A DNA stretch of 26,396 nucleotides, from positions 1-26,396 of the forward strand of contig JBFLYA010000031.1 of NCBI GenBank assembly GCA_040757115.1. Direction: 5' to 3'. The position numbers were made by a program, and so were the translations under genes. The notes below the pieces were generated by a model. The model saw only the letters and a list, made by a program, of their open reading frames with translations. It was not told the origin of the DNA and ran no database searches. Shown in pieces: positions 5,022 through 26,050 of this stretch. The number at the start of each line of letters is the position of its first letter. Position 1 is the first letter of the stretch. This stretch comes from a bacterium (lineage in GTDB: Bacteria; UBA9089; CG2-30-40-21; SBAY01).

Positions 5022-5057
5022 CTTTAAAAAATTATCCTGTCCATCTGGGCAAATCTG

Positions 5058-5413
5058 GGTGGTGTCTGAAAATAACTCTAATAGTGAAATCTATGCAGAT
5101 TTGGTGTCCAAAAGGGATTTCCTCCAAAGAGCAAAATGCAAAAAGCAAATATAAAAATTACATATCAAAATGTAAAATTATCTCTTTCCTTTCAGCGTTA
5201 AAATACTTGAAGCAAAGATATTACCAAATTCCTCCAACTCTTTGAGAAACCTTGTTACTTCCTCTTTGAAATTTGATTTGTAATTTTGCATTTTGATATT
5301 TATATTTGATATTTAATATTTGCTATTTGATATTTATTTGTTGTCTCCCTTAAATCCTATTTTGCAGAACCCTATACACTATTTTAACCTTTATGCTAGA
5401 TTAAGACACCACC
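5058..5413. mobile_element. MITE-like element, copy 2 (GGTGGTGTCT ends)
   Basis: A 356-bp near-identical copy of 128-463. Both ends read GGTGGTGTCT (inverted), and the flanking 8-bp duplication is caaatctg at 5050-5057 and 5414-5421. It differs from copy 1 mainly by an extra stretch of 'atatttgatatttaatatt' type repeats near 5300. It ends 12 nt from the acyP stop codon. Confidence 0.88.
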
Positions 5414-5824: not shown

Positions 5825-5953
5825 TCATACTATTTTACTCTTAATTGATTTGATTAAACCTATAAGCATCCTACTCACTTCTTCAGATATATCCCAAATG
5901 GATTGAAAATCTGGCAGATAATTAAGATCTTTAGATAGAATTAGATAATGCCT
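5825..5953 (-). pseudogene. C-terminal fragment of a four-helix-bundle (23S rRNA intervening-sequence type) protein
   Basis: An open stretch on the minus strand reads ..RHYLILSKDLNYL.. then SEEVSRMLIGLIKSIK and a TGA stop. This resembles the C-terminus of the four-helix-bundle family (S23/IVS, related to Avd), where a 'lilaKDLGYL...seEvsrmL.GLIksl' pattern is typical (from memory). No start codon or N-terminal half is present; the frame runs into the 'tttcctac' repeats. I read it as the decayed cargo of the element. Confidence 0.65.
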
Positions 5954-6204
5954 TTCCTACTTTCCTACTCTCCTACTTCCTACTTTCAGGAGGAAATAGT
6001 AGGCAAGTAGGTAGTAGGAAAGGGATAAAGGATGTGCACGGTATTCCTCTTTTGGGGACAATGTCTCCCCTTTCCTACTTTCCTACTTTCCTACTCTCCT
6101 ACTTCCTACTTTCAGGAGGAAATAGTAGGCAAGTAGGTAGTAGGAAAGGGATAAAGGATGTGCACGGTATTCCTCTTCTGGGGACAATGTCTCCCCTTTC
6201 CTAC
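5953..6204. repeat. Two tandem 126-bp units
   Basis: The unit contains 'tactttcaggaggaaatagt', 'gatgtgcacggtattcctct' and 'ggggacaatgtctcccc'. It repeats with a 126-bp period and very few differences (for example cttttgg versus cttctgg). The 'ggggacaatgtctcccc' part is a palindrome. It lies inside the 5766-6235 element. The open frame across it is an artefact. Confidence 0.85.
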
Positions 6205-7856: not shown

Positions 7857-7885
7857 TTTTTTTTTTACCCCAGAGAACACATGTT

Positions 7886-7951
7886 TTAACCGAGGCTCTG
7901 ATTGTTATATGTATTTAGAGAGTAATTACTGCATATTGTCTTCAGGGGCAC
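7886..7951 (-). pseudogene. Truncated copy of the smpB start upstream of ssrA
   Basis: Reading leftwards from a GTG at 7951, the first nine codons (V/M P L K T I C S N) match the smpB start (M T L K T I C S N) with one substitution. The frame then diverges and stops after 21 codons at a TAA (7886-7888). The copy keeps the GGTGGAAAGAAA ribosome-site region and the promoter. Similarity to 15800-15884 is about 93% over roughly 85 nt. Confidence 0.8.
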
Positions 7952-7969
7952 TTTCTTTCCACCAGTTTA

Positions 7970-7998
7970 AGTATACCATATTTTAAGAAAAATTACAA
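7970..7998 (-). promoter_or_regulatory. ssrA promoter (duplicate of the smpB promoter)
   Basis: On the minus strand: -35 TTGTAA (7993-7998), a 17-nt spacer, and -10 TATACT (7970-7975). The intact smpB gene has the same layout and nearly the same bases at 15844-15872. Transcription would start near 7963. Confidence 0.85.
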
Positions 7999-8063
7999 CT
8001 ATTTTTTATCAGTTGGGTGTATGTAAAATTTGTGGATAACTTTTAACACCTCTATTTTTATCA

Positions 8064-8303
8064 ATTTCCTCCAAAGAGCAAAATGCAAAACTCGTTTATA
8101 GTGTATAGTTTATAGTTTATAGTTTATAGTGTATAGTTTATAGTTTATAGTTTATAGTTTATGGTTTATAGTCTATAGTCCTTCAACTATCAACTATCAA
8201 CTATCTACTATCAACTATAAACTATCAACTATCTTTGCCAAAGTTCAGTAAAATTATCTCTTTCCTTTCAGCGTTAAAATACTTAAAGCAAAGATATTAC
8301 CAA
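8064..8303. repeat. Decayed third MITE copy split by heptamer repeats
   Basis: 8064-8090 matches the left-centre of the GGTGGTGTCT MITE ('cctccaaagagcaaaatg'), and 8248-8303 matches the next part ('tctctttcctttcagcgtta', 'agcaaagatattaccaa'). The two parts are separated by the heptamer array at 8094-8234. Neither MITE end is present. The rest of 7999-8392 holds only similar low-complexity text and no gene. Confidence 0.75.
8094..8234. repeat. Opposed heptamer arrays (TATAGTT)n and (AACTATC)n
   Basis: About a dozen TATAGTT-type heptamers run from 8094 to 8180, followed by about seven AACTATC/AACTATA heptamers to 8234. The second set is essentially the reverse complement of the first, so the transcript or single strand could fold as one long hairpin. 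Confidence 0.85.
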
Positions 8304-8392
8304 TCTTCATTCTTCTGCAATTTCTGCCTGCTTTAGTCTGAGGTCTGATGTCTATAGTCTACTGTCTGAATCACAGATTTTTTTTAAAATGC

Positions 8393-8422
8393 TTGACAAA
8401 AATTTAATTAATATGCTATTAT
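8393..8422 (+). promoter_or_regulatory. Promoter upstream of the radical SAM gene
   Basis: -35 TTGACA (8393-8398), an 18-nt spacer ending in TGC (extended -10), and -10 TATTAT (8417-8422). It is about 200 nt before the ATG at 8623. The intervening leader (8430-8622) holds no recognised riboswitch and no gene. Confidence 0.75.
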
Positions 8423-8622
8423 ATAATCATAAGGGATGAGGAATTAAATCCCCCTTTCAATTGTAGATAGGAATCAGAAACAAGAGATATCGCTATATCT
8501 TATTGAAAATCAAATGGTTATGTTAAATTTTTGTCTTTAAATAGAGGGGAAGTTCCGTTATAAGGATCCCCATCTTTACATATTATCAAATTCCCATCAG
8601 TTTTAGGAGACCAAACCTTAAA

Positions 8623-10212
8623 ATGAAACCACAAATTTTAATTATTGTGCCAAAACAACTCAATCTTGAAAAAGCTAATTACAACTACAACTTTCCATTA
8701 GGATTAGGCTATATCTCTTCAATTTTAAAAAAAAATGGGTATAATGTAGATTGTATTAACTTAAACCATTATGAAGGGAAAACTGAGAATTTAGTAAAAT
8801 CTTCTTTAAGTAAAAAAGAATATGATTTTGTTGGAATTGGGAACATTGCTTTAGGATTTAATTCTACCAAAATAATTATAGATAGCATAAGAGAATATAA
8901 TCCTAAAATAAAAATTATCATTGGAGGAATGATTATTATTGCTGATCCAAAATTAATGTTTCCTCTTTTAAATCCTGATTTTGGAGTTATAGGAGAAGGT
9001 GAAGAAACAATTATAGAGCTTCTTGAGGCAATTGAGAATAAAAAAGATTTAAAAAATATTAAAGGCCTTATTTTTAAAGATGTAAAAGGAGATATAATTT
9101 TAACAGAGCAGAGAGAGCCTATAAAAGATATTGATTCTTTGCCTTGGCCTGATTTTGAAGGCCTTGAATATTTAGAGTTTATAGAGCATCTTCATCCTAA
9201 TTTTGGGAATGCATATAATTTTTTTGACAATCCGCGTCCTTACCCTATTTTAGGAAGCAGGGGATGCCCGTTCCATTGCACTTTTTGCTATCATTACAGC
9301 AATTACAGAGCAAAGTCTGTTAGAAGTATTGTTGAAGAGATTCGAGTAGCAATAGAAAAATACAGGATAAATATAATTGCATTCTATGATGAATGTATTT
9401 CAGTAAACAAACTAAGATTATTTGAAATTTGCGAAGAAATAAAAAAATTAAGAGAAGAAACTCCATGGAACTTAAACTGGATACCTCAGATGACAGTGCA
9501 TAACATTGATGAAGAGGTTCTTAAAAGAATAAAAGAGTCTGGAGGAGCTATAATAAGCTATGGTTTTGAAAGTTTTTCAGAAAAAGTTTTAAAGAGCATG
9601 AGGAAGCCAATTACGCCGCAGATGATTGAAAATGCTTTTTTAAAAACAATAAACGCAGGAATAGGGGTTCAGGGGAATTTTATTTTCGGAGATGTCGCTG
9701 AAACAAAAGAAACAGCAAAAGAAACTTTAGACTGGTGGAAAAAAAATGCAAAAGGTCAGATAAACCTGGGTTTTATCCAGCCTTATCCTGGAAGCGAAAT
9801 CTACAAGCATTGCGTGAGAAAAGGGATAATAAAAGATGAGGCAAATTTTATAAAAAGTCAGCTTTCAACAATGCATTATTACAACATGACTGAAAACATG
9901 ACTGATAAAGAATATGCTAAAATGAAAAAAGAAATATTTAATGCAGTTGTAAAATATCATATATTTACAAAGCATAAAATAAAAAGATTGGTTGAAAATG
10001 TCTATGAAGTAAATGTTAAATGCCCTTTCTGCCAAAAAATAATCACTTACAAAAATATTCTTATAGAAGATCCTATTTTATATGGATTTTGGCTTTATTG
10101 CAGAAATTGCCATCAAAGATTCTTCATAGTAAGTCCTTTAAAAAGACTTTCATATAAATTTTACTCTTATTTAAAATTCTTACAAGAACGAAGGGATAAA
10201 AAGAAATACTAG
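8623..10212 (+). CDS. B12-binding-domain radical SAM protein with C-terminal zinc ribbon
   Basis: A 529-residue enzyme of the cobalamin-binding-domain radical SAM superfamily. Residues about 1-150 form the B12-binding-like Rossmann domain (PLGLGYISSILKKNGY; DFGVIGEGEETI). No clear DxHxxG is seen, so cobalamin may not bind through a lower histidine. The 4Fe-4S motif CPFHCTFC has cysteines at 215, 219 and 222, followed by a radical SAM barrel (ISYGFESFSEKVL). A C-terminal four-cysteine ribbon (C467, C470, C493, C496) is an uncommon addition. Its AGGAGA ribosome site is rather far from the ATG (about 13 nt). Codon use looks more A-rich than the downstream sugar genes, possibly a separate origin. 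Substrate unknown. Confidence 0.88.
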   Translation: MKPQILIIVPKQLNLEKANYNYNFPLGLGYISSILKKNGYNVDCINLNHYEGKTENLVKSSLSKKEYDFVGIGNIALGFNSTKIIIDSIREYNPKIKIIIGGMIIIADPKLMFPLLNPDFGVIGEGEETIIELLEAIENKKDLKNIKGLIFKDVKGDIILTEQREPIKDIDSLPWPDFEGLEYLEFIEHLHPNFGNAYNFFDNPRPYPILGSRGCPFHCTFCYHYSNYRAKSVRSIVEEIRVAIEKYRINIIAFYDECISVNKLRLFEICEEIKKLREETPWNLNWIPQMTVHNIDEEVLKRIKESGGAIISYGFESFSEKVLKSMRKPITPQMIENAFLKTINAGIGVQGNFIFGDVAETKETAKETLDWWKKNAKGQINLGFIQPYPGSEIYKHCVRKGIIKDEANFIKSQLSTMHYYNMTENMTDKEYAKMKKEIFNAVVKYHIFTKHKIKRLVENVYEVNVKCPFCQKIITYKNILIEDPILYGFWLYCRNCHQRFFIVSPLKRLSYKFYSYLKFLQERRDKKKY

Positions 10213-10698
10213 TGCTGTGTCGCTACTCAATTGATGTTCCCCGCTGGCGGCGGATTAAGGGGGTGGAATATGAAATCTGAAATAGAAAAATGCAGCCCCC
10301 AATAATTAACAATTGACAATTTACAATTAACAATTGACCATTATTTGTTAATTTTGTCAACATCAAATATTAATTGTGAATTGATAATGGCTAATTGATA
10401 ATTGTCAATTAACTATATTTGGACTTGTGGGTAACGATAAGACTCCCGCCAGCGGGGGGGATTAAGGGAGTGGAAATGAGAAGAAGAAAAGCCCTTCAGC
10501 CTTCAGCCTGATTACAGACACGGATACCGGAGATGCCTCACCGATTTTTCCGTGTTTCATCCGTGTCCATCTGCGGCTGAATAGTTACGATTTGGTTTAT
10601 AATTCTTCGTACCCTTCGTGTTCTTCGTGATTTTAAAAGATGTGAGGAAGGTTAATCTAATCGCACAGGTGGAAAATTTCATTTAATGAGGTAACTTA
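10213..10698. repeat. Intergenic repeat region with no gene
   Basis: The 486 bp between the radical SAM gene and rfbF. It holds two copies of a 'ggattaaggg.gtggaa' block next to ccgcyggcgg palindromes (10239-10269 and 10444-10475). An inverted AT-rich repeat, 'aattgacaatttacaatt' against 'gataattgtcaattaac', spans about 10305-10412. A GTAAC-family right end, GGCTGAATAGTTAC, lies at 10575-10588 without a visible left partner. No convincing promoter for rfbF is seen. Confidence 0.7.
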
Positions 10699-11484
10699 AT
10701 GTCTAAAGTAGTTATTTTATGTGGTGGAATGGGTACCAGATTACGGGAGGAAACTGAAATTCGACCGAAACCATTAGTTGAAGTAGGAAATAAACCCATC
10801 CTCTGGCACATTATGAAGATTTATTCATATTATGGATTTAATGATTTTATTCTTTGTCTGGGTTACAAAGGAGAGATGATTAAAAACTATTTCTATAACT
10901 ATGAAATGCTAAATAATGATTTTACCATAGAATTAGGTAACTCTAAAAATATAGAGATTTACAGCCATCATAAAGAAAAGGACTGGCGAGTTACACTGGT
11001 TGATACCGGAGCAAATGCCTTGAAAGGGGCGAGGATAAAAAAAATAGAAAAATATATCGATAGCGACCTGTTTATGCTGACTTATGGAGATGGCGTAGCT
11101 AACATCAATCTCCATGAATTGTTATCCTTTCATAAGAGTCATGGTTGTATTGGAACGGTAACTGGTGTCCGACCGATGTCGCGATTTGGGGAATTAATAG
11201 TTAAAGAAAATAGAGTTATCTCATTTACAGAAAAGCCCCAGGTTTCTTATGGAATAATAAATGGGGGGTTTTTTGTTTTTAATCGAAAAATCTTTGACTA
11301 TTTATCTGAAAATGATAGTTGTGATTTTGAAATAGGACCGTTAGAACAATTAGCCAGAGAAGGCGAATTAATGGTCTATGACCTCAAAGGAGCATGGGAG
11401 TGTATGGATACCTTTAGGGATACTCAGCATCTTAATAATTTGTGGAAAAATAAAAAGGCATTCTGGAAAGTTTGGGAGGAGTAA
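10699..11484 (+). CDS. rfbF: Glucose-1-phosphate cytidylyltransferase
   Basis: A 261-residue nucleotidyltransferase making CDP-glucose from CTP and glucose 1-phosphate, the first step of CDP-3,6-dideoxyhexose synthesis. It has the family start LCGGMGTRLREET..RPKPLVEVG with the GGMGTRL loop at 9-15 and Lys24, then LTYGDGVANI and the CDP-glucose-type ending (SCDFEIGPLEQLA, GAWECMDTFRD). Length is normal. A GAGGT ribosome site precedes the ATG. It begins the rfbF-cupin-rfbG-rfbH-GT operon. Its last codons hold the ribosome site of the next gene. Confidence 0.96.
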   Translation: MSKVVILCGGMGTRLREETEIRPKPLVEVGNKPILWHIMKIYSYYGFNDFILCLGYKGEMIKNYFYNYEMLNNDFTIELGNSKNIEIYSHHKEKDWRVTLVDTGANALKGARIKKIEKYIDSDLFMLTYGDGVANINLHELLSFHKSHGCIGTVTGVRPMSRFGELIVKENRVISFTEKPQVSYGIINGGFFVFNRKIFDYLSENDSCDFEIGPLEQLAREGELMVYDLKGAWECMDTFRDTQHLNNLWKNKKAFWKVWEE

Positions 11485-11488
11485 AAAA

Positions 11489-11950
11489 ATGGATAATAAC
11501 CAGATTGAAGGCGTGGTTATAAAACCACTAAAAAAAATACCGGATGAAAGAGGTTCTATCTGTCTCATGTTAAGATGGGATGACCCAATTTTTGAGAGAT
11601 TTGGAGAGATATATTTTTCTTTAGCCTATCCTGGAGTTATTAAAGCCTGGCACCTACATGAAAAAATGACGCTAAATTATGCGGTTATTCAAGGAATGAT
11701 AAAACTTGTCCTTTTTGATAATAGGGAAAACTCATCTACAAAAGGTAATTTAATGGAAGTGTTTATTGGTGAAGAAAATTATTCTTTAGTTAAAATTCCA
11801 CCAAAAATTTGGAATGGATTTAAATGTATTGGAACAAAACAGACCATAGTGGCAAATTGTGCGACCTTACCTCATGACCCAGACGAAATTAAAAGAATAA
11901 ATCCTTTTACAAATGAAATACCTTACGATTGGGACCTAAAACATGGATAA
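11489..11950 (+). CDS. RmlC-like cupin, sugar-nucleotide epimerase family
   Basis: A 153-residue protein of the dTDP-4-dehydrorhamnose 3,5-epimerase (RmlC/RfbC) cupin family: KKIPDERGSICLML near the start, KAWHLHEKMTLNYAVIQG as the metal-free cupin core with a candidate base histidine, and NGFKCIG. The start is the ATG after GGGAGGAG, which overlaps the end of rfbF. Between rfbF and rfbG it is well placed to epimerise a CDP-4-keto sugar, as the CDP-ascarylose 5-epimerase does in Yersinia. The exact substrate is inferred from context. It overlaps rfbG by 8 nt. Confidence 0.85.
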   Translation: MDNNQIEGVVIKPLKKIPDERGSICLMLRWDDPIFERFGEIYFSLAYPGVIKAWHLHEKMTLNYAVIQGMIKLVLFDNRENSSTKGNLMEVFIGEENYSLVKIPPKIWNGFKCIGTKQTIVANCATLPHDPDEIKRINPFTNEIPYDWDLKHG

Positions 11951-13055
11951 ATATCTTAGACAAATATATGAAAATAGACGGGTGTTAGTTACAGGACATA
12001 CGGGATTCAAAGGCGGATGGTTATCAGTATGGCTTACAGAATTAAGGGCAAAGGTTATTGGTTACTCCCTCCAACCCCCTACACAACCAAATCTGTTTGA
12101 ATCTATAAATCTAAAAGATAAAATTGAACACATTATTGGTGATATTCGAGATGAAAAAAATTTGCTCGCTATCTTTGAAGAATATCAACCTGAATTTGTC
12201 TTCCACTTAGCGGCACAACCATTAGTGAGATTTTCTTATAAAGAACCAAAATTTACCTATGAAACAAACATCATGGGCACAGTAAACCTTTTAGAAGCAG
12301 TACGAAAATCCAAGAGTGTGAAAGTTTGTGTTATCATTACCAGTGATAAGTGCTATGAAAATAAAGAATGGATTTATGGTTATAGAGAAATAGACCCGAT
12401 GGGTGGCTATGACCCTTATAGTTCAAGTAAGGGGTGTGCTGAACTCATAACCGCTTCTTATAGAAATTCTTTTTTTAATCCTAAAGACTATGGGAAAATT
12501 CACCAGGTATCTCTATCATCTGTCCGAGCTGGAAATGTAATCGGTGGTGGAGATTGGGGGGAAGATAGACTTATTCCGGATTGTGTGAAATCATTTTCAA
12601 AAAATAAAACAGTTCTCATTCGTAATCCACACGCCACAAGACCCTGGCAATATATTTTGGAACCATTATCAGGTTATCTATTGCTGGGAGCGTTAATGTA
12701 TGAAAACGGAGCAAAATATAGTAGCGGGTGGAATTTTGGTCCAAACGATGAAAGTATAATAAAGGTGGAAGAAATAGTTAAATGTTTAATTAAACATTGG
12801 GGTAGCGGCGACTATCAAATAGACACTTCAAATGTCACTCAACCTCATGAAGCCAGCCTCTTAAAATTGGATATAAGTAAAGTTCGTGCTTTACTTGGTT
12901 GGAAACCTATTTATCATATCTATGAATCACTTGAAAAAACTATTATGTGGTATAAAAGTTTTTACAATGATGTTGGTCTGGAAAAGTTGTATGAAATTAC
13001 AGTCCAGGAAATTAGGAACTACATAAACTCTATAAATAGGAAGGAATTAAATTAA
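11943..13055 (+). CDS. rfbG: CDP-glucose 4,6-dehydratase
   Basis: A 370-residue extended short-chain dehydrogenase converting CDP-glucose to CDP-4-keto-6-deoxyglucose. The NAD-binding loop is TGHTGFKG (residues 17-24) and the catalytic pair is Y159-x3-K163 (YSSSK). [13 protein letters not shown] and [16 protein letters not shown] are typical of the CDP-glucose dehydratase subgroup. Length is normal. Its ATG lies inside the end of the cupin gene, showing coupling, and it is followed after 4 nt by rfbH. Confidence 0.96.
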
Positions 13056-13059
13056 GATA

Positions 13060-14370
13060 GTGGAAAATAAAGATTTAAAAAGTGAGATTTTTGAGATGGT
13101 TACCAGGTATTATGAAGAAAAACATAAACACAAACCATTTATACCTGGTAAAACACACATTCCGTATGCTGGTCGGGTCTATAACGAAGAGGAGATAATT
13201 TTTCTTGTTGATTCGGCTTTGGATTTCTGGCTGACAACTGGAAGATTTGCAGAACAATTTGAGAAGGAATTGAGTAAGTTTTTAGGGGTAAAACATTGTA
13301 TTCTCACTAACTCGGGTTCTTCTGCCAATCTTTTAGCTATTTCTGCTTTGACATCTCCTAAGTTAGGAGAAAGAAGGCTTAAACCAGGAGATGAAGTAAT
13401 CACTATAGCCTGTGGTTTCCCAACCACGGTGAATCCGATTATCCAGAATAATCTGGTGCCGGTATTTATAGATGTAGATATTGGGTCTTATAACATTCAA
13501 TCAGATAAAATTGAAGAGGCTTTATCTGAAAAGACAAAGGCTATTTTTTTAGCCCATACACTTGGTAATCCATTTGATTTAAACAAAATAATGTCCATTG
13601 CTCAAAAATATAATTTGTGGGTAATTGAAGATAACTGCGATGCTCTTGGCTCAAAATACAATGATAAATATACTGGCACCTTTGGACAGATAGGGACTTT
13701 AAGTTTTTACCCTGCTCACCACATCACTATGGGAGAAGGAGGGGCATTAATAACTAATGATACTCAGCTAAAGAGATTGATTGAATCTTTTAGAGACTGG
13801 GGTAGAGACTGCTGGTGTGAGCCAGGAAATGATAATACCTGTGGAAAGAGATTTTCACAGCAGTTGGGTAGGTTACCTTTTGGTTATGACCATAAGTATA
13901 TCTACTCTCATATAGGTTATAATTTAAAAATAACAGATATGCAAGCGGCAATAGGGATTGCTCAATTAAAAAAATTACCCTCATTTATTGAAGCCAGAAA
14001 GAAAAATTTTAATTTGCTTTATCAAGGGCTAAAGAAATATGAGGAAGTCTTCATCCTGCCACAACCTACTTCTAATTCACAACCAAGCTGGTTTGGATTC
14101 CCAATAACCGTAAGACAAAAGGCTAAATTTTCACGAGCAGAGATTGTTAATCATTTAGAAAAAAATAATATTGCTACCAGAATGCTTTTTGGTGGCAATT
14201 TAGTCAAACAACCGGCCTATCAAAATGTGAATTATCGCCTTATAGATTCGTTAAAAAATACAGATTTTGTCATGGATAATACCTTTTGGTTGGGTGTATA
14301 TCCTGGCTTAACTGAGGAAATGATTGAATTTATTCTTAAAACAATAGCCTCTAAATTGCGAGGGATATGA
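13060..14370 (+). CDS. rfbH: CDP-4-keto-6-deoxyglucose 3-dehydrase (E1), PMP and [2Fe-2S] enzyme
   Basis: A 436-residue aminotransferase-fold enzyme that removes the C3 hydroxyl from CDP-4-keto-6-deoxyglucose. Two hallmarks identify E1. The PLP lysine is replaced by histidine in [13 protein letters not shown] (His220). The iron-sulfur cysteines C193, C251, C253 and C261 keep the C-x57-C-x1-C-x7-C spacing known for E1. It starts with GTG with a weak, distant AGGAAGG site, so it probably depends on coupling with rfbG. It overlaps the glycosyltransferase start by 4 nt. Catalysis needs an E3 reductase, not found in this window. Confidence 0.96.
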
Positions 14371-15362
14371 TGGTTGATTTAACTATATCGATAATTAATT
14401 TTAATAATGAAAAGTTATTAGAAGAGTGTCTAACATCTATTTATGAAACCGCTAAAAAGATTAGCTTTGAAATATGGGTAGTGGATAATTACTCAATGGA
14501 TAACAGTGTAGAAATGGTTCGAACTAAATTCCCACAAGTTAATCTAATAGTCAATCCCCACCATAAAGGTTTTTCTACCAATCATAACCAGGTGCTATCG
14601 CGGATGAACGGCAGGTATGCTTTAATCTTAAGTGATGATGTGATTGTAAAACCAAATGCCCTTGATTATATGGTCGAGTTTATGGATGAACATTCTGATA
14701 TAGGAATATTAGGGCCAAAGGAGTTTTTCCCGGATGGAAGATTGCAAAAATTTCATTGTTTGGAAATACGCTCTCCCTGGTCTGAATTTTTAGAGGCATT
14801 TATGATTAGTCCTTTTTTAAGAAGGGTTTTTCCTGAACTAAGATTTCCAGGACAATTGTATATGTCTTCGCTCAAAGATTATAACTATGCTCATGAGGTA
14901 GCTTCTGTTCATGGAAGTTGTCTGATGGTGAGAAAAAAGATGTTAGACCAAATTGGGCTCATGGAAGAAAAATATTATTTCTATTATGAAGAACCGGATA
15001 TATGCCTTCGGGCTAAAAAAGCAGGCTATAAAGTCTATTATACCCCAGATGCACAAATAATCCACTATTTTGCCGCTACCACTCGAAAATCTAATCCATT
15101 TTTTATGATAGATAAATCTTTAAATGCCCTCCATTCTTTTTATAAAAAATTCTATGGTTTATCTGGCTCTATTTTAGTTGGATGTATTACCATTGCCTCT
15201 TCAATATTTATCTTATTCACCTTCCCTTTTGTCTATATATTTGATGTGAAAAAGAGAGATGTGATAAAAAGAGGTATAAAATCTAATTTACTGGTTCTTC
15301 ATTGGTATTTTACCTTCGGAGGACGATTCTCTTCTAAGAAGAAGAATGTGTATCTTGACTAA
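14367..15362 (+). CDS. GT2-family glycosyltransferase with a C-terminal membrane segment
   Basis: A 331-residue GT-A fold transferase of the WbbL-like GT2 type. It has [20 protein letters not shown] at the start, VVDNYSMD (D40), SDD at 89-91 as the metal-binding DxD equivalent, and [22 protein letters not shown] as the acceptor-side motif. A hydrophobic stretch at about 270-293 should anchor it to the inner membrane face. It probably adds the deoxyhexose made by the preceding genes to a surface polysaccharide. Donor and acceptor are inferred. It ends 4 nt before the convergent smpB stop. Confidence 0.9.
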
Positions 15363-15366
15363 CCTT

Positions 15367-15825
15367 CTATTTCCTCATAGTTTCTTTCATCGCCCGTCTC
15401 ATTTCTTTTTCATGGTCTCTTTTCTTAATTACCGCACGCTTATCATAAAGTTTTTTACCTTTACCTAATCCTAATTCTAACTTTACCTTTCCTTTTTTAA
15501 AGTATAATCTTAATGGAATTAAGCTAAGTCCTCTTTCTTGCGTCTTCCCTATCAATCTTTTGATTTCTTCTTTTTTTAAAAGGAGCTTACGAATCCTTGT
15601 CGGCTCATGATTTTGAATATTTCCATACGGATATTGATTTATATGACAATTAAATAAAAAAACCTCTTCATTTTCTACCCTGGCTAAACTATCCTGTAAA
15701 TTTGCTTGATGATTTCGTAATGATTTAACCTCTGTTCCTCGAAGGCAAATACCTGCCTCGTAAGTTTCTAAAATTTCATAATCATGGTATGCTTTACGAT
15801 TACTACATATTGTCTTCAGGGTCAC
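15367..15825 (-). CDS. smpB: SsrA-binding protein SmpB
   Basis: A 152-residue RNA-binding beta-barrel protein that carries tmRNA to stalled ribosomes. The family landmarks are complete: NRKAYHDYEILETYEAGICLRGTEVKSLR at the start (positions 9-37), the NQYPYGNIQNHEPTR loop, LYFKKGKVKLELGLGKGKKLYDKR, and a basic tail from about 135. It starts with GTG, with GGTGG about 10 nt before. The promoter at 15844-15872 predicts a leader of only about 12 nt. Its RNA partner ssrA is 7.5 kb away and carries a copy of this gene's promoter and first codons. Confidence 0.97.
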   Translation of the reverse strand: MTLKTICSNRKAYHDYEILETYEAGICLRGTEVKSLRNHQANLQDSLARVENEEVFLFNCHINQYPYGNIQNHEPTRIRKLLLKKEEIKRLIGKTQERGLSLIPLRLYFKKGKVKLELGLGKGKKLYDKRAVIKKRDHEKEMRRAMKETMRK

Positions 15826-15843
15826 TTTCTTTCCACCATTTCA

Positions 15844-15872
15844 ACTATACCACATTTTAAGAAAAATTACAA
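15844..15872 (-). promoter_or_regulatory. smpB promoter
   Basis: On the minus strand: -35 TTGTAA (15867-15872), a 17-nt spacer, and -10 TATAGT (15844-15849). It is the counterpart of the ssrA promoter at 7970-7998, sharing the AAAATTACAACTATTTTTTAT block just upstream. Confidence 0.82.
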
Positions 15873-15899
15873 CTATTTTTTATATTCCCTGTTTTTTTA

Positions 15900-16031: not shown

Positions 16032-16223
16032 ATGGGTTCTACGGCGAAGTTAAGCAGTAAATATCAAATTGTTATCCCTAAAAAAATAAGACGAGAATTA
16101 AACCTGAAATCAGGTGATGAATTAATAATGAAGATTGAAGATGATAAGATAATTATGCGGGCAAAACCTAAGAGTTATACCGACTATATGTTAGGATTAG
16201 GTGAAAAAGTCTGGAAGGAATAA
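16032..16223 (+). CDS. vapB: AbrB/MazE-fold antitoxin (VapB-like)
   Basis: A 63-residue swapped-hairpin AbrB-type DNA-binding antitoxin: KLSSKYQIVIPKKIRRELNL, then KSGDELIMKIEDDKIIMRAK, with a short C-terminal tail (YTDYMLGLGEKVWKE) expected to wrap the toxin. GGAGG lies 9 nt before the ATG. The stop is followed after 2 nt by the PIN toxin gene. By analogy with the family it should repress its own promoter. Confidence 0.9.
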   Translation: MGSTAKLSSKYQIVIPKKIRRELNLKSGDELIMKIEDDKIIMRAKPKSYTDYMLGLGEKVWKE

Positions 16224-16225
16224 TT

Positions 16226-16690
16226 ATGAACAAATTAGAAAAATTTCTGAAAGGACATCATGTTATAGGATTAGATGCACAAATCTTTATTTATCTTTTT
16301 GAAAATAATCCGAGATTTAAACCAGTTACAATCGCCCTATTTAGTCTAATGGAGCAAGGAGAAATAATTGGTGTTACATCTATTCTATCTCTTCTTGAAA
16401 TTCTTATCAAACCGATGGAGAAACAAGAACATCATTTGATAAATGAATATAAATTTTTGCTTAATACATTTCCGAACTTGATTATTGGGAAAATTGATGA
16501 AGAGATAATCGATTTAGCCGCATCTTTCAAAGCAAATTATTCTTTTTTGGATGATACTTTTGCCATTCAATTAGCTACCGCTAAATTATACGACGCCGAG
16601 TGTTTCATTACTCATAACCAATCGCTGAAAAAAATGCGAGAGATTAAAATAATTAATATAGCCGAGATTTTAGAAAAGGTAGAAGATTGA
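16226..16690 (+). CDS. vapC: PIN-domain ribonuclease toxin (VapC-like)
   Basis: A 154-residue PIN domain. Acidic metal ligands are D17 (GLDAQIFIYL), E58 (LSLLEILIKP) and D109/D110 (SFLDDTFAIQLATA). The late motif usually read as TxD is THN here (129-131), so one conserved acid is replaced. Gene order and spacing with the AbrB antitoxin make it a type II toxin, probably an RNA endonuclease. Its TGA overlaps the next ATG by 1 nt (TGATG). Confidence 0.9.
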   Translation: MNKLEKFLKGHHVIGLDAQIFIYLFENNPRFKPVTIALFSLMEQGEIIGVTSILSLLEILIKPMEKQEHHLINEYKFLLNTFPNLIIGKIDEEIIDLAASFKANYSFLDDTFAIQLATAKLYDAECFITHNQSLKKMREIKIINIAEILEKVED

Positions 16691-19468: not shown

Positions 19469-19487
19469 AAAAAGGAGGTTGGTTAAA

Positions 19488-22400
19488 ATGTTAAAACAAA
19501 ATAATAGTTGTAAGTATAAGAGAGAGAGAGATTACGAAAGAAAAGAAGTTTTAAGTGGAGGTTTTTTATGTTTTTTAAGCAGGTTGATAGTATTAGTTGC
19601 CTGCTTTATTTGTCTTTTGGGTAGGTTAGTAAGTAAGAGATATTCGGGTCAGGAGACCAGAAGCGACTCATTTATGTTTTCTTGCTACTCTCTACTTTCT
19701 ACTCTCTACTTTTTCAGGAAAGTTGGCAAGGTATTATTATTTGCCGCTTGCCTGGTATTGATACTAATAGGAATCCAGGAAAAGAAATGTTTTGCTCAAA
19801 ATAATGAAGTAATGTTACCAATACAATGGGGAGGAACAATAGGGCATATCGAGCAATCTGGTCCAGTATGGAGATGTCTTGAAGTTTTTTATGCATTTAC
19901 GCCACTTGATGATTTTCAAGTTGATTATTACATGTATAAAAGTTCTCGAACTCAAGGATGGCAGAAAGCGAATCCCTTTTTACCTTCTGACATTGAATTA
20001 TCGCAGAACCCATGGCTTACTCCAAAACATTTACTTATGAGGCCAATGTACTATGGTTTATGTGCCGATCTAACCTTAGAAGAAGCTAAAAAAGAGCTAT
20101 TAGAGATGATAACAGACAACCAGGCTCATAATTATGAAGTAAAAGCAGTAGGAAAATGGAAAAAGGATGCATATGAATTAAAAAAAGAGGAAATACTAAA
20201 TAAGTTAGGTAAAGGTGATACTATAGGAGACCCTGTAAATCCTATTACCGGTAATTTCTTCTATTCTCATGAGGATTTATATATTCCAGGTGGTGGATTT
20301 CCAATACGGTTTATACGGAGTTATAACTCCCAAGATAATAATTTATTTGTAAGGCAAGTATTTGGAATAGGTTGGACACATAATTTTAATATTCACTTTA
20401 ATGCTCAGGATGAATGGAATTTACCTGATAATTACTACGTTCCAGTTGCAAGTATACGAGATTGGGACGGAAAAATGATTTACTTTAGGGAATGGAATGG
20501 TATATATTATCCCAAATGTGGTGAAAGGTCTACTTTATCTAAACAAGATGATGGTAGTTTTGTCTGGACAAAAAGAGATGGGATTAAATATTACTTTGAA
20601 GAAGTTATACCTAAACATGTCCCACTTCTTTCTAGAATAGTTAAGCCAAACGGGCATTATATCAGATTAATTTATAATGATAACGCTAAACTTATAAAAA
20701 TACAAAATGATTCTGGATATTACATAGACCTTGTATATGTGACTTATCAAGAAGACAAACTTACCGAGGGATGTCTTAAGAGCATATCAGATTCTACAGG
20801 TCGAACAGTTTCTTATGAATATACAGGTACAATTACAGAGAATAGGATAGGGAAGATGTATTTAGCCACTGTAACTGATACTTTAAATAATAAGATAGTA
20901 TACAACTATATGAAGGATGATTTTCCTTATTATCCAATTGATTGGATCAGTAATAGCAGTTATAAACCACTGACAAAAATTAAAGACCCTAATGGAAGAA
21001 TAGTTGAAATTTCTTATAATAACTTTGATGGAAGTGGATATTTTAGGTGTTGCGAGGTAATGGTACAATCTGAGTGGAAGCTATATGACTATGATTATCT
21101 TCTATGGATATCTTATGACTATGATAAAGACTATGGTTCAAAAACTACATTTATTGGAGGAAATAAGTATCAAGAAAAAATATATGGCTATAACCAGATA
21201 TATCAGTATAAAAGAACTGATGAATATGCCGAGTATGGGTGGGGATTAACTGTATCTAGAATAACGACTAATTGCAAAGAGATAGACACATGGTCTGAAA
21301 ATGTAACTAATAAAGTATTCACCTATAGTCCTAATGGACTTCTCTATCAAATTAAAGATGACAATGGCAATATTACTAAGATGGATTATGAACCCAATCT
21401 ACCATATAACCTGACTAACATAATTGACCCGCTAAATGGAACTACTACCTTTACCTATCATCCATCATTACCAATGTGCATAACACAAATAAAAGACCCA
21501 ATGAATAATATCACTACCTTCGATTATTATGATGATGGAAAACTCGGAACTATAACTGATGCACAAGGAAATAAGACAAGATATTTCTATGATACCAAAG
21601 GTAATTGTATTCAAATTATTGATGCCAATAACCAGATTGTCACCTATACCTATAATTCAAATGATAATTTAATAGCTATCAAAGACCCTCTTGGAAATAT
21701 AACCTCATTTGAGTATGACCCTATTGGTAATTGTAAAAAGATTATCTATCCTAACAATTACACGATTAGCTTTAATTACAATGCAGATAATAAAATAACC
21801 CGGATAATATATCCTGATACTACTATTTCATATGAATACGACCCGGTGGGGAACATAGGTACTATGACAGATTCAAGAGGGGTTACTCGGTATAAATATG
21901 ATTCAGTAGATCGACTTGTAAAAATAATACATCCTGATGGTAGTGTATCTACCTATACATCTACTTATGCAGTCTGGGCACAGGGCGTATCTAAAATATT
22001 AGTAGAAGATGCTAATGGAAAAGCAACAAATTATGCCTTTAACAGTCTTCATCAGCTTCAAGAAGTAAAGCAAAATAACGAAGGAGAGGATATTGTTACC
22101 AGGTATAGCCATGACCCATTAGGTAACCTACAATCTATAACCGATGCTAAAAATAGAACTACTGTCTATAGCTATGATGGACTAAATAGACTAACTAAGG
22201 TTACATATCCAGATGACACTGGAGTGGAGTATAGGTATGATAAAAATGGTAACTTGAGATTTAAACAAGAGCCAGAGGCAAAGGATAATTTCGAATGGAT
22301 AGAGTATCGTTATGATAACTTAAACCGCCTTATTTACAAAGGCACCATTACCTGCCTGGCAAATAATAATCCATTAACAGATGCTATTGGCTATGCGACT

Positions 22401-25400
22401 AAGACTGTTTTTGCTTATGATACTTATATCATTAGTCCACCTGCTGATTTAAATAACCCAAAAGGGAATCTGACAATGATGATTGATGAATCGGGCACTA
22501 CTACCTATTTTTACAATGCCTTAAATAGATTATGCCAACAAGATAAGATAATCGATGGGCTAAAATATACGACTCAATATCATTATGATAAAGCAGGAAA
22601 TATAGACTATATCATTGACCCAGCAGGTAAAAAGACGATTTATACCTATACCAACAATCGCATTACCTCAATTAATGTGGATGGAATTGGTAAGATAGCT
22701 GATTATACCTATAATCCAACGGATGCTGTCAAAAGTATAACCTTTAATAATAACATAAAGACTGACTTCGATTATTACCCTACACAAGGTTGGATAAAGA
22801 AAATAAATACGACTAAAGGGACATCATCGGTCCTTCAGCGCTATTATAAAGGTTATGACAAAATAGGTAATCTCTTAAATGAAAATATTGAAAAGGCGAT
22901 ATGGAATGAAGAATATAAAGGAAATATCCTGCCTGAAAATTTAGATTGGCCTGCTTCAGAAGGAACTGGAAATGCAGTCATTGAAAATGATGGAATTTTA
23001 CATATTACCGGAGTTAAAAATTGGAGAAAAGAGCACATATATCCTGATGAGTGGAAAGAACCAGAAGAAGGTTTTTGTATAGAATTCTCATTAAAAGTAG
23101 GAGGGAAAAATGAAGGTGCATTTGTAGCCTTTGGTGGAGATTGGACTGGTTGGAGAAGTGAATGGATACTTTTCTATCCTGACAGGATTGACTTTTTTTA
23201 TACCAGGGATTCTATATCAATGTCCACTAACGATAGTTTCCATACCTATCGAATAGAAATTGTAGGGAAAAATTTAAAGTTTTATGCCGATGATAAATTT
23301 AAAAAAATGATTGAGCCATTTGGAACATCAGGTGGTTCCATACATCCAACTACTCTTATCCAAATAGTAAAATGGGGATGTAAAGATGGTGCGGGAGAAT
23401 CCTTTTGGAAATATATTAAATATCGTTCAAGTGTTAACCCGATAAATGAACTCCCATTTGCTAGATATATCTATGATGATTTATATAGATTAGAAGATGT
23501 AAATTATGGCGATAAGTTTTTGGAATTCCCAAATCTTAGTTATGGATATGACAAGGTTGGTAATCGAGAATTTGAAAATAAAGGTAATGATATTCATTCC
23601 TATACCTATATAGATAATACTGATAGAATATACTCAAATGGAGTATATACCTATACCTACGATAACAATGGTAATCTGAAGACTAGGTCCATTAGCACTG
23701 CTACGACTACTTATCACTATGACTACGAAAACAGATTAATAAAGGTTGAATCGCCCGGTGGATTAGTTGAGGAATATGTCTACGATGGTTTTGGTCATAG
23801 AATTATGAAGAATACTGCCGGGACAAAAACAGTATATCACTATAATCAGGAAGGTAAAATTATCTGCCAGAATAGTTATATAGGGGGAGGACAAAATGAT
23901 AGTGAGGAGATATATGAGGAGGATTTTGAAAACCTACCAGAACAAAAGATATGGACTACAAGTGGGCTATGGCATCAGTCAGATAAAAAGAGCTATTCTG
24001 GAAAATATTGTTTTGCTTATAATAATGACAAAGACTATAATACTGGTGGCAGGAACTTTGGCATTTTGACCTCACCTATAATTGATCTAACTAAACCAGC
24101 TACGGCTACATTGAGTTTCTGGACAAGATGGCAACATGAATCTTATCCTTATGGAAAATATGATAATATGAAGGTAGAGGTCTATGATGGTAAGAGTTGG
24201 CGTCAGATTTTTTATAATGACTGTCGAGGGATAGCCTTTTCGGATTGGCATAGAAAATCCTTTGACCTCTTAACTTATTGTGGAAAGAAAATACAGATTA
24301 GGTTTTGTTTTGATACCGTTGATGGTTGGTATAACAATTATGAAGGCTGGTATATTGATAAAATTGAGATTAGAGGGGGAGATAAGATATTTTTTGAAGA
24401 TGATTTTGAGGAAACTCAAAATGAGATAAAAGACAAAATTTGGATAAATGATGGACTCTGGAATCATTCAATACTCAGGAGTAATAGCTCTGTTCATAGT
24501 TTTGCTTATAATAACGGAGCAAATTATAATACCGGTGGTAGAAATTCTGGTTGTTCTCTTTCACCATTAATTGATTTGTCAACGCTCAAAGGTAACCTTA
24601 CTCTAAATTTCTGGACAAGATGGCAACATGAATCTTATCCTTATGGAAACTATGACAATATGAAGGTAGATATTTGGGATAGTCAGAAATGGAATAGGAT
24701 TTTTTATAACGATTGTAATGAAGGACCATCGGTTATGGACTGGCATGAGGAATCCTTTGATATTTCAAACTACGCGGGTAAGAAGATAAAACTAAGATTT
24801 AATTTTGATACAGTAGATGGGTGGTATAACGACTATGAAGGGTGGTATATAGATGATGTAGAGATTATCAAGGGAGAAGATAAACCTGTGTATGTGCCTT
24901 TAGGAACTATCTCCTATATTTATGCTAATGATGAATTAGTCGCGAGGGTAGATAAAAAACCTGCTCAGTCCGAGAAAGTATATTATTATCATAATGATTA
25001 CTTAGGTTCAACAAGGGTGATGACTGATAGTATGGGAGAAATAGTTTGGTCGAGTGATTATTTACCTTTTGGTGAGTTGATAAATACAGAGGGAAAGATT
25101 GAAAATAACTTCACTTTCACTGGCAAAGAATATGATGAGGCAACCGGCTTATATTACTTCGGCGCCAGATACTATGATCCGAGGGTAGGGAGATTTATTA
25201 CTAAAGACCCATACACTGGCAATGTCTACTTTCCACCTAATTTACATAAGTATATCTATTGCTACAATGATCCGATTAACTGGATAGACCTGTGGGGATT
25301 GTGTCCAATAAGTCCAGAGGAGCAATCTATAATAGAGGACTGGTTAAGTGAAATTGGATTAGGTTTTCTGGCATATCTTTATCCAACACTATTTAGTTCA

Positions 25401-25649
25401 ATAGTTGGATTATCTCAACAAGCAGAAGCACCAAAGTATGATCCAAAACCTCCTGATGGATTTGTCGAAAATCCTGATCGAAAAGGAAGTTGGGGAAAGT
25501 ATGAAGACGGAAAGTTTAAAGAGAAATGGAGATTTGATAAGGGGGATCCTACAAAGCCAGGGTGGAGAGGAAAAGATCACTTACACTTTGATAAGAAAAA
25601 GAAACATTATCCCCCAGATACACCCTATCCAGGGAATGGAGGTCAGTAA
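19488..25649 (+). CDS. Giant secreted RHS/YD-repeat polymorphic toxin
   Basis: A 2053-residue exported toxin. I use the ATG 9 nt after GGAGG. Two N-terminal hydrophobic stretches (26-46 and 82-96) precede a likely signal cleavage near CFAQ (101-104). From 247, GDPVNPITGNFFYSHEDL starts the RHS N-terminal domain, then many YD repeats (YDxxGN). Three jelly-roll inserts interrupt the shell: a LamG-like one at about 1140-1315 and two tandem near-identical ones at about 1473-1632 and 1636-1800 (each with TRWQHESYPYG and DTVDGWYN.YEGWYID). The RHS core (GLYYFGARYYDP, DPINWIDLWGL) ends near 1938. The variable tip (1939-2053) carries DHLHFD at 2030-2035 and may be a nuclease; type unknown. The immunity gene follows directly. 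Confidence 0.93.
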   Translation: MLKQNNSCKYKRERDYERKEVLSGGFLCFLSRLIVLVACFICLLGRLVSKRYSGQETRSDSFMFSCYSLLSTLYFFRKVGKVLLFAACLVLILIGIQEKKCFAQNNEVMLPIQWGGTIGHIEQSGPVWRCLEVFYAFTPLDDFQVDYYMYKSSRTQGWQKANPFLPSDIELSQNPWLTPKHLLMRPMYYGLCADLTLEEAKKELLEMITDNQAHNYEVKAVGKWKKDAYELKKEEILNKLGKGDTIGDPVNPITGNFFYSHEDLYIPGGGFPIRFIRSYNSQDNNLFVRQVFGIGWTHNFNIHFNAQDEWNLPDNYYVPVASIRDWDGKMIYFREWNGIYYPKCGERSTLSKQDDGSFVWTKRDGIKYYFEEVIPKHVPLLSRIVKPNGHYIRLIYNDNAKLIKIQNDSGYYIDLVYVTYQEDKLTEGCLKSISDSTGRTVSYEYTGTITENRIGKMYLATVTDTLNNKIVYNYMKDDFPYYPIDWISNSSYKPLTKIKDPNGRIVEISYNNFDGSGYFRCCEVMVQSEWKLYDYDYLLWISYDYDKDYGSKTTFIGGNKYQEKIYGYNQIYQYKRTDEYAEYGWGLTVSRITTNCKEIDTWSENVTNKVFTYSPNGLLYQIKDDNGNITKMDYEPNLPYNLTNIIDPLNGTTTFTYHPSLPMCITQIKDPMNNITTFDYYDDGKLGTITDAQGNKTRYFYDTKGNCIQIIDANNQIVTYTYNSNDNLIAIKDPLGNITSFEYDPIGNCKKIIYPNNYTISFNYNADNKITRIIYPDTTISYEYDPVGNIGTMTDSRGVTRYKYDSVDRLVKIIHPDGSVSTYTSTYAVWAQGVSKILVEDANGKATNYAFNSLHQLQEVKQNNEGEDIVTRYSHDPLGNLQSITDAKNRTTVYSYDGLNRLTKVTYPDDTGVEYRYDKNGNLRFKQEPEAKDNFEWIEYRYDNLNRLIYKGTITCLANNNPLTDAIGYATKTVFAYDTYIISPPADLNNPKGNLTMMIDESGTTTYFYNALNRLCQQDKIIDGLKYTTQYHYDKAGNIDYIIDPAGKKTIYTYTNNRITSINVDGIGKIADYTYNPTDAVKSITFNNNIKTDFDYYPTQGWIKKINTTKGTSSVLQRYYKGYDKIGNLLNENIEKAIWNEEYKGNILPENLDWPASEGTGNAVIENDGILHITGVKNWRKEHIYPDEWKEPEEGFCIEFSLKVGGKNEGAFVAFGGDWTGWRSEWILFYPDRIDFFYTRDSISMSTNDSFHTYRIEIVGKNLKFYADDKFKKMIEPFGTSGGSIHPTTLIQIVKWGCKDGAGESFWKYIKYRSSVNPINELPFARYIYDDLYRLEDVNYGDKFLEFPNLSYGYDKVGNREFENKGNDIHSYTYIDNTDRIYSNGVYTYTYDNNGNLKTRSISTATTTYHYDYENRLIKVESPGGLVEEYVYDGFGHRIMKNTAGTKTVYHYNQEGKIICQNSYIGGGQNDSEEIYEEDFENLPEQKIWTTSGLWHQSDKKSYSGKYCFAYNNDKDYNTGGRNFGILTSPIIDLTKPATATLSFWTRWQHESYPYGKYDNMKVEVYDGKSWRQIFYNDCRGIAFSDWHRKSFDLLTYCGKKIQIRFCFDTVDGWYNNYEGWYIDKIEIRGGDKIFFEDDFEETQNEIKDKIWINDGLWNHSILRSNSSVHSFAYNNGANYNTGGRNSGCSLSPLIDLSTLKGNLTLNFWTRWQHESYPYGNYDNMKVDIWDSQKWNRIFYNDCNEGPSVMDWHEESFDISNYAGKKIKLRFNFDTVDGWYNDYEGWYIDDVEIIKGEDKPVYVPLGTISYIYANDELVARVDKKPAQSEKVYYYHNDYLGSTRVMTDSMGEIVWSSDYLPFGELINTEGKIENNFTFTGKEYDEATGLYYFGARYYDPRVGRFITKDPYTGNVYFPPNLHKYIYCYNDPINWIDLWGLCPISPEEQSIIEDWLSEIGLGFLAYLYPTLFSSIVGLSQQAEAPKYDPKPPDGFVENPDRKGSWGKYEDGKFKEKWRFDKGDPTKPGWRGKDHLHFDKKKKHYPPDTPYPGNGGQ

Positions 25650-26050
25650 TGCAGTTAAATTTGAGTCGTGAGCAAATTGAGTTTCTTCCTATCCATGATG
25701 CTGAATTACACAATCTTTCGATCATTCAAACTGTCGCAGGGAATTATATTTTGTTACTTGATGTGGAAATTACTGATGATTCTTATGACCCAGGTTATCC
25801 TATCCCTAAAAAAAATGGCTTAACAAGAATAATTTTTAAGAACTGTTGGGGAATAATGAATGATCTTAAATGTCACTGCGTAGATAGAGATACAATACAA
25901 GGGATAGATATGATTAAAGATTCTAATTTGATTTCTGAAATGGAAAGCAAAGGAATCAAACCACCCATTCCAGTTTATCATTATAGAATTTCTTTAAATA
26001 GTGGCTCGCAAATTGATGTTGTTTTAGAAGAGATTATATTAGAAGGATAG
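25649..26050 (+). CDS. Probable immunity protein for the RHS toxin
   Basis: A 133-residue soluble protein whose ATG overlaps the RHS stop (TAATG), the usual place for an immunity gene. It starts MQLNLSREQIEFLPIHDAEL and is beta-rich with no signal peptide or membrane span, as expected for a cytosolic inhibitor. The HDAEL..LSI opening recalls small polymorphic-toxin immunity families, but I cannot name one. The role rests on position and size. Confidence 0.75.
   Translation: MQLNLSREQIEFLPIHDAELHNLSIIQTVAGNYILLLDVEITDDSYDPGYPIPKKNGLTRIIFKNCWGIMNDLKCHCVDRDTIQGIDMIKDSNLISEMESKGIKPPIPVYHYRISLNSGSQIDVVLEEIILEG

Follow-up and report, generated by a model that had tools for sequence, protein, structure and literature searches.

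The smpB promoter and start region recurs in front of ssrA in two related bacterial species

The partners of trans-translation, SmpB and tmRNA, are encoded in Bacillus subtilis within the gene order secG-yvaK-rnr-smpB-ssrA (PMC3534368, Table 1). In the smpB-ssrA pair of Streptomyces, most of the tmRNA is made from ssrA's own promoter (PMC2635970). Here we describe a locus of an uncultured bacterial genus in which the two genes lie apart and ssrA is preceded by a copy of the promoter region and first codons of smpB. The locus is contained in a stretch of 26,396 nucleotides (hereafter the window), which is contig C31 of a 4.3-Mb genome in 462 contigs. No reports of such a duplication of the smpB start in front of ssrA were found in the literature searched, as judged by titles and abstracts.

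Two copies of the smpB start region

The ssrA gene of the window encodes a full-length tmRNA: the RF00023 covariance model matches over model positions 1-374 with 208.6 bits, against a gathering score of 47. The smpB product gives a full-length match to TIGR00086 (188.7 bits, curated cut-off 119.1). The two genes are co-oriented within less than 8 kb of each other and are separated by about 7.5 kb; they are not adjacent and have genes between them, and thus do not form an operon in the window. The intervening block, on the opposite strand, includes CDP-sugar genes for glucose-1-phosphate cytidylyltransferase, an RmlC-like protein, CDP-glucose 4,6-dehydratase, RfbH and a glycosyltransferase (Table 1). 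The gene map agrees with a preliminary description of this DNA, made from the sequence alone, which placed the two genes about 7.5 kb apart with sugar genes between.

Table 1. Coordinates of the features of the smpB/ssrA locus in the window
Feature	Position	Strand	Basis
ssrA (tmRNA), tag ANYDLALAA	7496..7856	-	ARAGORN; RF00023
Leader between the stop of the mini-ORF and the mature tmRNA 5' end; contains an A run	7857..7885	-	Sequence; site of the 447-bp insertion in G001
Leader frame, 21 codons, GTG start, TAA stop; nine smpB codons and 12 unrelated ones	7886..7951	-	Sequence; same open length in G001
ssrA-side copy: smpB promoter, ribosome-binding site and nine first codons	7925..8009	-	Repeat, 93%; ortholog in G001
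Sigma-70-like promoter, ssrA side, TTGTAA-17-TATACT, extended -10; predicted start ~7963	7970..7998	-	Consensus match
Intervening genes: B12-binding radical SAM gene (8623-10212) and CDP-sugar genes	8623..15362	+	ORF/profile annotation
smpB, intact	15367..15825	-	TIGR00086 and NF003843, both over cut-off
smpB-side copy: native smpB promoter and start	15799..15883	-	Repeat, 93%
Sigma-70-like promoter, smpB side, TTGTAA-17-TATAGT, extended -10	15844..15872	-	Consensus match

The repeat is direct and 85 nt long, with 93% identity between its two copies, one of which spans the start of smpB and the other ends 69 nt ahead of the 5' end of ssrA. The alignment bears out the repeat of about 85 bp and about 93% identity reported in the preliminary description, with true coordinates lower by 1 nt. 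The promoter, ribosome site and KTICSN start that were said to be common to both copies are all present: each copy contains TTGTAA separated by 17 nt from TATA(C/G)T with an extended -10 TG, then GGTGG, 7 nt and GTG, and finally codons for xLKTICSN. The candidate sigma-70 promoter before ssrA has hexamers that match the consensus at 9 of 12 positions, a spacing of 17 nt (16-18 in this class) and the extended -10. A search of the whole genome with the repeat recovered exactly two full copies (E = 2e-30), which rules out a dispersed repeat; the third-ranked match is 35 nt long, 83% identical and A+T-rich, and the rest are short and A+T-rich as well. Because the residues ICSN are conserved in SmpB, the direction of copying is fixed as from smpB.

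Several other features of the window were observed. Positions 8010-10690 make up a variable spot beside the conserved CDP-sugar genes, with the B12-binding radical SAM gene in the window and an NAD-dependent epimerase-like gene (L096 8138-9169) in the sister species G001. Positions 8094-8232 hold repeats of a 7-nt unit (TATAGTT and variants) that are continued by the inverted complement of the array, so that a long palindrome is formed. A 252-bp segment is present twice (121-372 and 5051-5302, 98% identical), and a 56-bp part of it occurs a third time at 8248-8303, just upstream of the ssrA-side copy; a 126-bp unit is found in tandem duplicate (5952-6203, 99% identical) where no ORF is listed. 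Immediately ahead of smpB, but on the other strand, a small AbrB-like frame is followed by a gene for a PIN-like protein (16033-16690), a pair that is VapBC-like by eye and whose PIN-like protein has no NCBIfam match. Finally, a YD-repeat (RHS-like) protein of 2056 aa is followed directly by a 133-aa gene (19479-26050), an arrangement resembling, by layout alone, a polymorphic toxin with its immunity gene.

The sister species, the copied promoter and the leader frame

G001, the single other genome of the genus in the comparison, has the two copies together on a single contig, ordered and oriented as in the window. At all six positions that distinguish the copies, each G001 copy agrees with its counterpart in the window (6 of 6), and the comparison of the two genomes shows no sign that gene conversion has acted between the copies after the species split. 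Because these copy-specific differences are shared, the duplication is placed before the split of the two species and is not an assembly error; the identical arrangement in another assembly, whose sequence has diverged, likewise rules out an artefact.

In G001, six bases (two codons) have been lost from smpB immediately behind the GTG start (L096 15529-15549), as judged against the smpB of the window and the ssrA-side copies. Between the ssrA leader and ssrA, G001 further contains a 447-bp multi-copy element (L096, G001:C32, 6868-7314), parts of which are found at dozens of places in that genome, and which carries a promoter-like TTGTCA-16-TATGAT (10 of 12 matches) 88 nt from ssrA. The element has inverted ends like GTAACCGTTCAGG and has entered the run of A residues that borders ssrA on its 5' side.

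No other promoter-like site was detected on the minus strand between the ssrA-side copy and ssrA in the window, and for this reason the copied promoter is most likely the best candidate for transcription of ssrA in this species, where the twin candidate promoters could possibly allow matched expression of smpB and ssrA. In G001, matched levels from the two predicted promoters appear doubtful because the 447-bp element and the promoter-like site that it carries lie between the copy and ssrA; judged by the predicted sites, the arrangement of matched promoters is not conserved even within the genus. An unlikely alternative is that the copy is a passive relic without a role today and that most transcription of ssrA begins elsewhere, in the leader or at an unrecognized site. 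Such a relic would fit the 447 bp of added distance in G001, the better match of the site brought in by the element and the agreement of the copied hexamers with the consensus at only 9 of 12 positions, but it is at odds with the promoter, ribosome site and spacing on the ssrA side being identical in both species and with the lack of a competing site in the window.

The 21-codon frame that had been noticed in the tmRNA leader is present at the position given in Table 1 and translates as MPLKTICSNYSLNTYNNQSLG, followed by the stop. Along the 156 bp of the ssrA-side region, the window and G001 differ at five positions; all five lie within the 21 codons (63 nt), four affect third codon positions, and the frame is open and of equal length in both species (P ~0.01 for location and ~0.04 for codon position, for one pairwise comparison and with tests picked post hoc). 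The other 93 nt, including the promoter and ribosome site, show 0 changes, compared with 3.2% divergence at four-fold sites (P ~0.05, a weak test picked after seeing the data). Taken as hints of selection, including codon-wise change in the frame, these figures are weak. In folding, the leader RNA showed no unusual stability relative to shuffled sequences (z -1.17), and a structured leader was rejected on these grounds.

We infer that the frame is a by-product of the copied smpB start. That it is translated in the manner of a leader peptide, tying the maturation or supply of tmRNA to translation, seems extremely improbable. The GGTGG-7-GTG start in common with smpB and the confinement of the species differences to a frame that stays open would suit this role, but these differences amount to five changes in one pairwise comparison, the folding of the leader is unremarkable, the frame has no counterpart in other relatives, and in G001 the 447 bp are inserted after it. 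We also consider it very doubtful that translation of the captured smpB start loads ribosomes on the pre-tmRNA and so co-tunes tmRNA with SmpB through near-identical initiation signals.

Wider relatives and the origin of the copy

The gene order on which the preliminary description had built its scenario, smpB directly upstream of ssrA, occurs with both genes on the same strand in six further members of the phylum (G006, G010, G011, G015, G017 and G018), with a gap of about 20 to 260 nt, and also beyond the phylum. In a wide scan, it was seen in at least 16 of the 80 SmpB loci, a lower bound because some contigs end too early to include ssrA. None of the other genomes with both regions compared has the smpB start copied in front of ssrA, and long perfect matches come from genomes in which the 600 nt upstream of ssrA reach the adjacent smpB itself; a phylum-wide habit is thus rejected.

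In both species of the sister genus (G002 and G003), ssrA, 83-85% identical to that of the window, is preceded by an unrelated, perfect sigma-70 promoter, TTGACA-17-TATAAT, that stays with ssrA despite differing neighbor genes, and no smpB-like start was found before ssrA in either genome. In G003, smpB lies on another contig than ssrA, and in G002 smpB was looked for and not found. Relatives of this kind, with an unrelated ssrA promoter and without an smpB-like start, had been named beforehand as refuting the proposal; this case applies in part, in the sister genus but not in G001. Because of the unrelated ssrA promoter and the unlinked or unfound smpB in G002 and G003, an ssrA with a promoter of its own may be the older state in the family. 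Three further genomes of the same order (G004, G005 and G007; completeness 93-96%) yielded neither SmpB nor tmRNA. For G004 and G005, a contig end falls immediately next to the site that the pair occupies in G006, and an assembly gap is therefore likelier than gene loss; a true loss of trans-translation in these two genomes is not supported.

The explanation that we prefer starts from an ancestor that would have had the gene order of the six other phylum genomes, with smpB immediately preceding ssrA and in the same orientation. The smpB gene would have been duplicated with its promoter region, and the copy next to ssrA would have lost its body after codon 9, so that the ssrA leader would have become joined to the promoter, ribosome site and nine codons of smpB. 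The remaining copy would have been kept as smpB, and the sugar-gene block would have arrived between the copies. This would leave ssrA under the smpB promoter, with a pre-tmRNA leader of about 107 nt that would then be removed by RNase P. We regard it as fairly probable that the ssrA-side copy is the surviving start of a duplicated smpB and that ssrA kept the copied promoter. Gene duplication is favored because smpB and ssrA are still co-oriented within 8 kb although gene neighborhoods are heavily shuffled within the family (a coincidence of about 0.2% in 4.3 Mb, by our own rough estimate).

Alternatively, and in our view possible but rather less likely, an 85-nt piece with the smpB start was later pasted in front of an ssrA that was already separate, replacing its native promoter with no tandem duplication or loss of a gene body. 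This would account for the repeat being cut close to the promoter and start, and for the finding of neither a remnant of the smpB body beside ssrA nor a remnant of ssrA beside smpB; remnants of the two genes were also not found in the segment of about 1 kb that separates smpB from the sugar block in that of G001. The independent ssrA promoter of both sister-genus species, kept despite their differing neighbors, is in line with it too. However, such later copying leaves unexplained both the co-orientation of the two genes within 8 kb of a heavily shuffled genome and the inclusion of nine codons, and our preference, a moderate one, is for gene duplication followed by loss of the body.

The earlier proposal was a tandem duplication of an smpB-ssrA unit with reciprocal loss. 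The shared duplication, the gene order in the phylum and the co-orientation agree with it; the reciprocal loss of full pairs, however, has no remnants to support it. Duplication of smpB alone would be simpler because duplication of the full pair needs an extra loss that has left no trace.

Comparison with known systems

The event is a lineage-specific duplication, seen in two species, within a known type of gene neighborhood and is a matter of ordinary genome evolution. If the proposed history is true, it would be a readable example of a protein-RNA partner pair that split while both members retained the same promoter, and would also illustrate how a stable RNA gene can capture the start of a coding gene. 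In B. subtilis, smpB, upstream of its trans-translation partner ssrA on the same strand, shows the order that we propose as ancestral here; in the window, by contrast, the two genes are 7.5 kb apart, with sugar genes on the opposite strand between them, and the smpB promoter stands a second time before ssrA. In Streptomyces and, by prediction, in the window, ssrA has a promoter of its own apart from the smpB transcript, but the candidate promoter in the window duplicates that of smpB, together with the start of the gene. A dedicated promoter upstream of ssrA is likewise found in the sister genus, where, unlike in the window, it is the unrelated and perfect TTGACA-17-TATAAT and comes without smpB codons.
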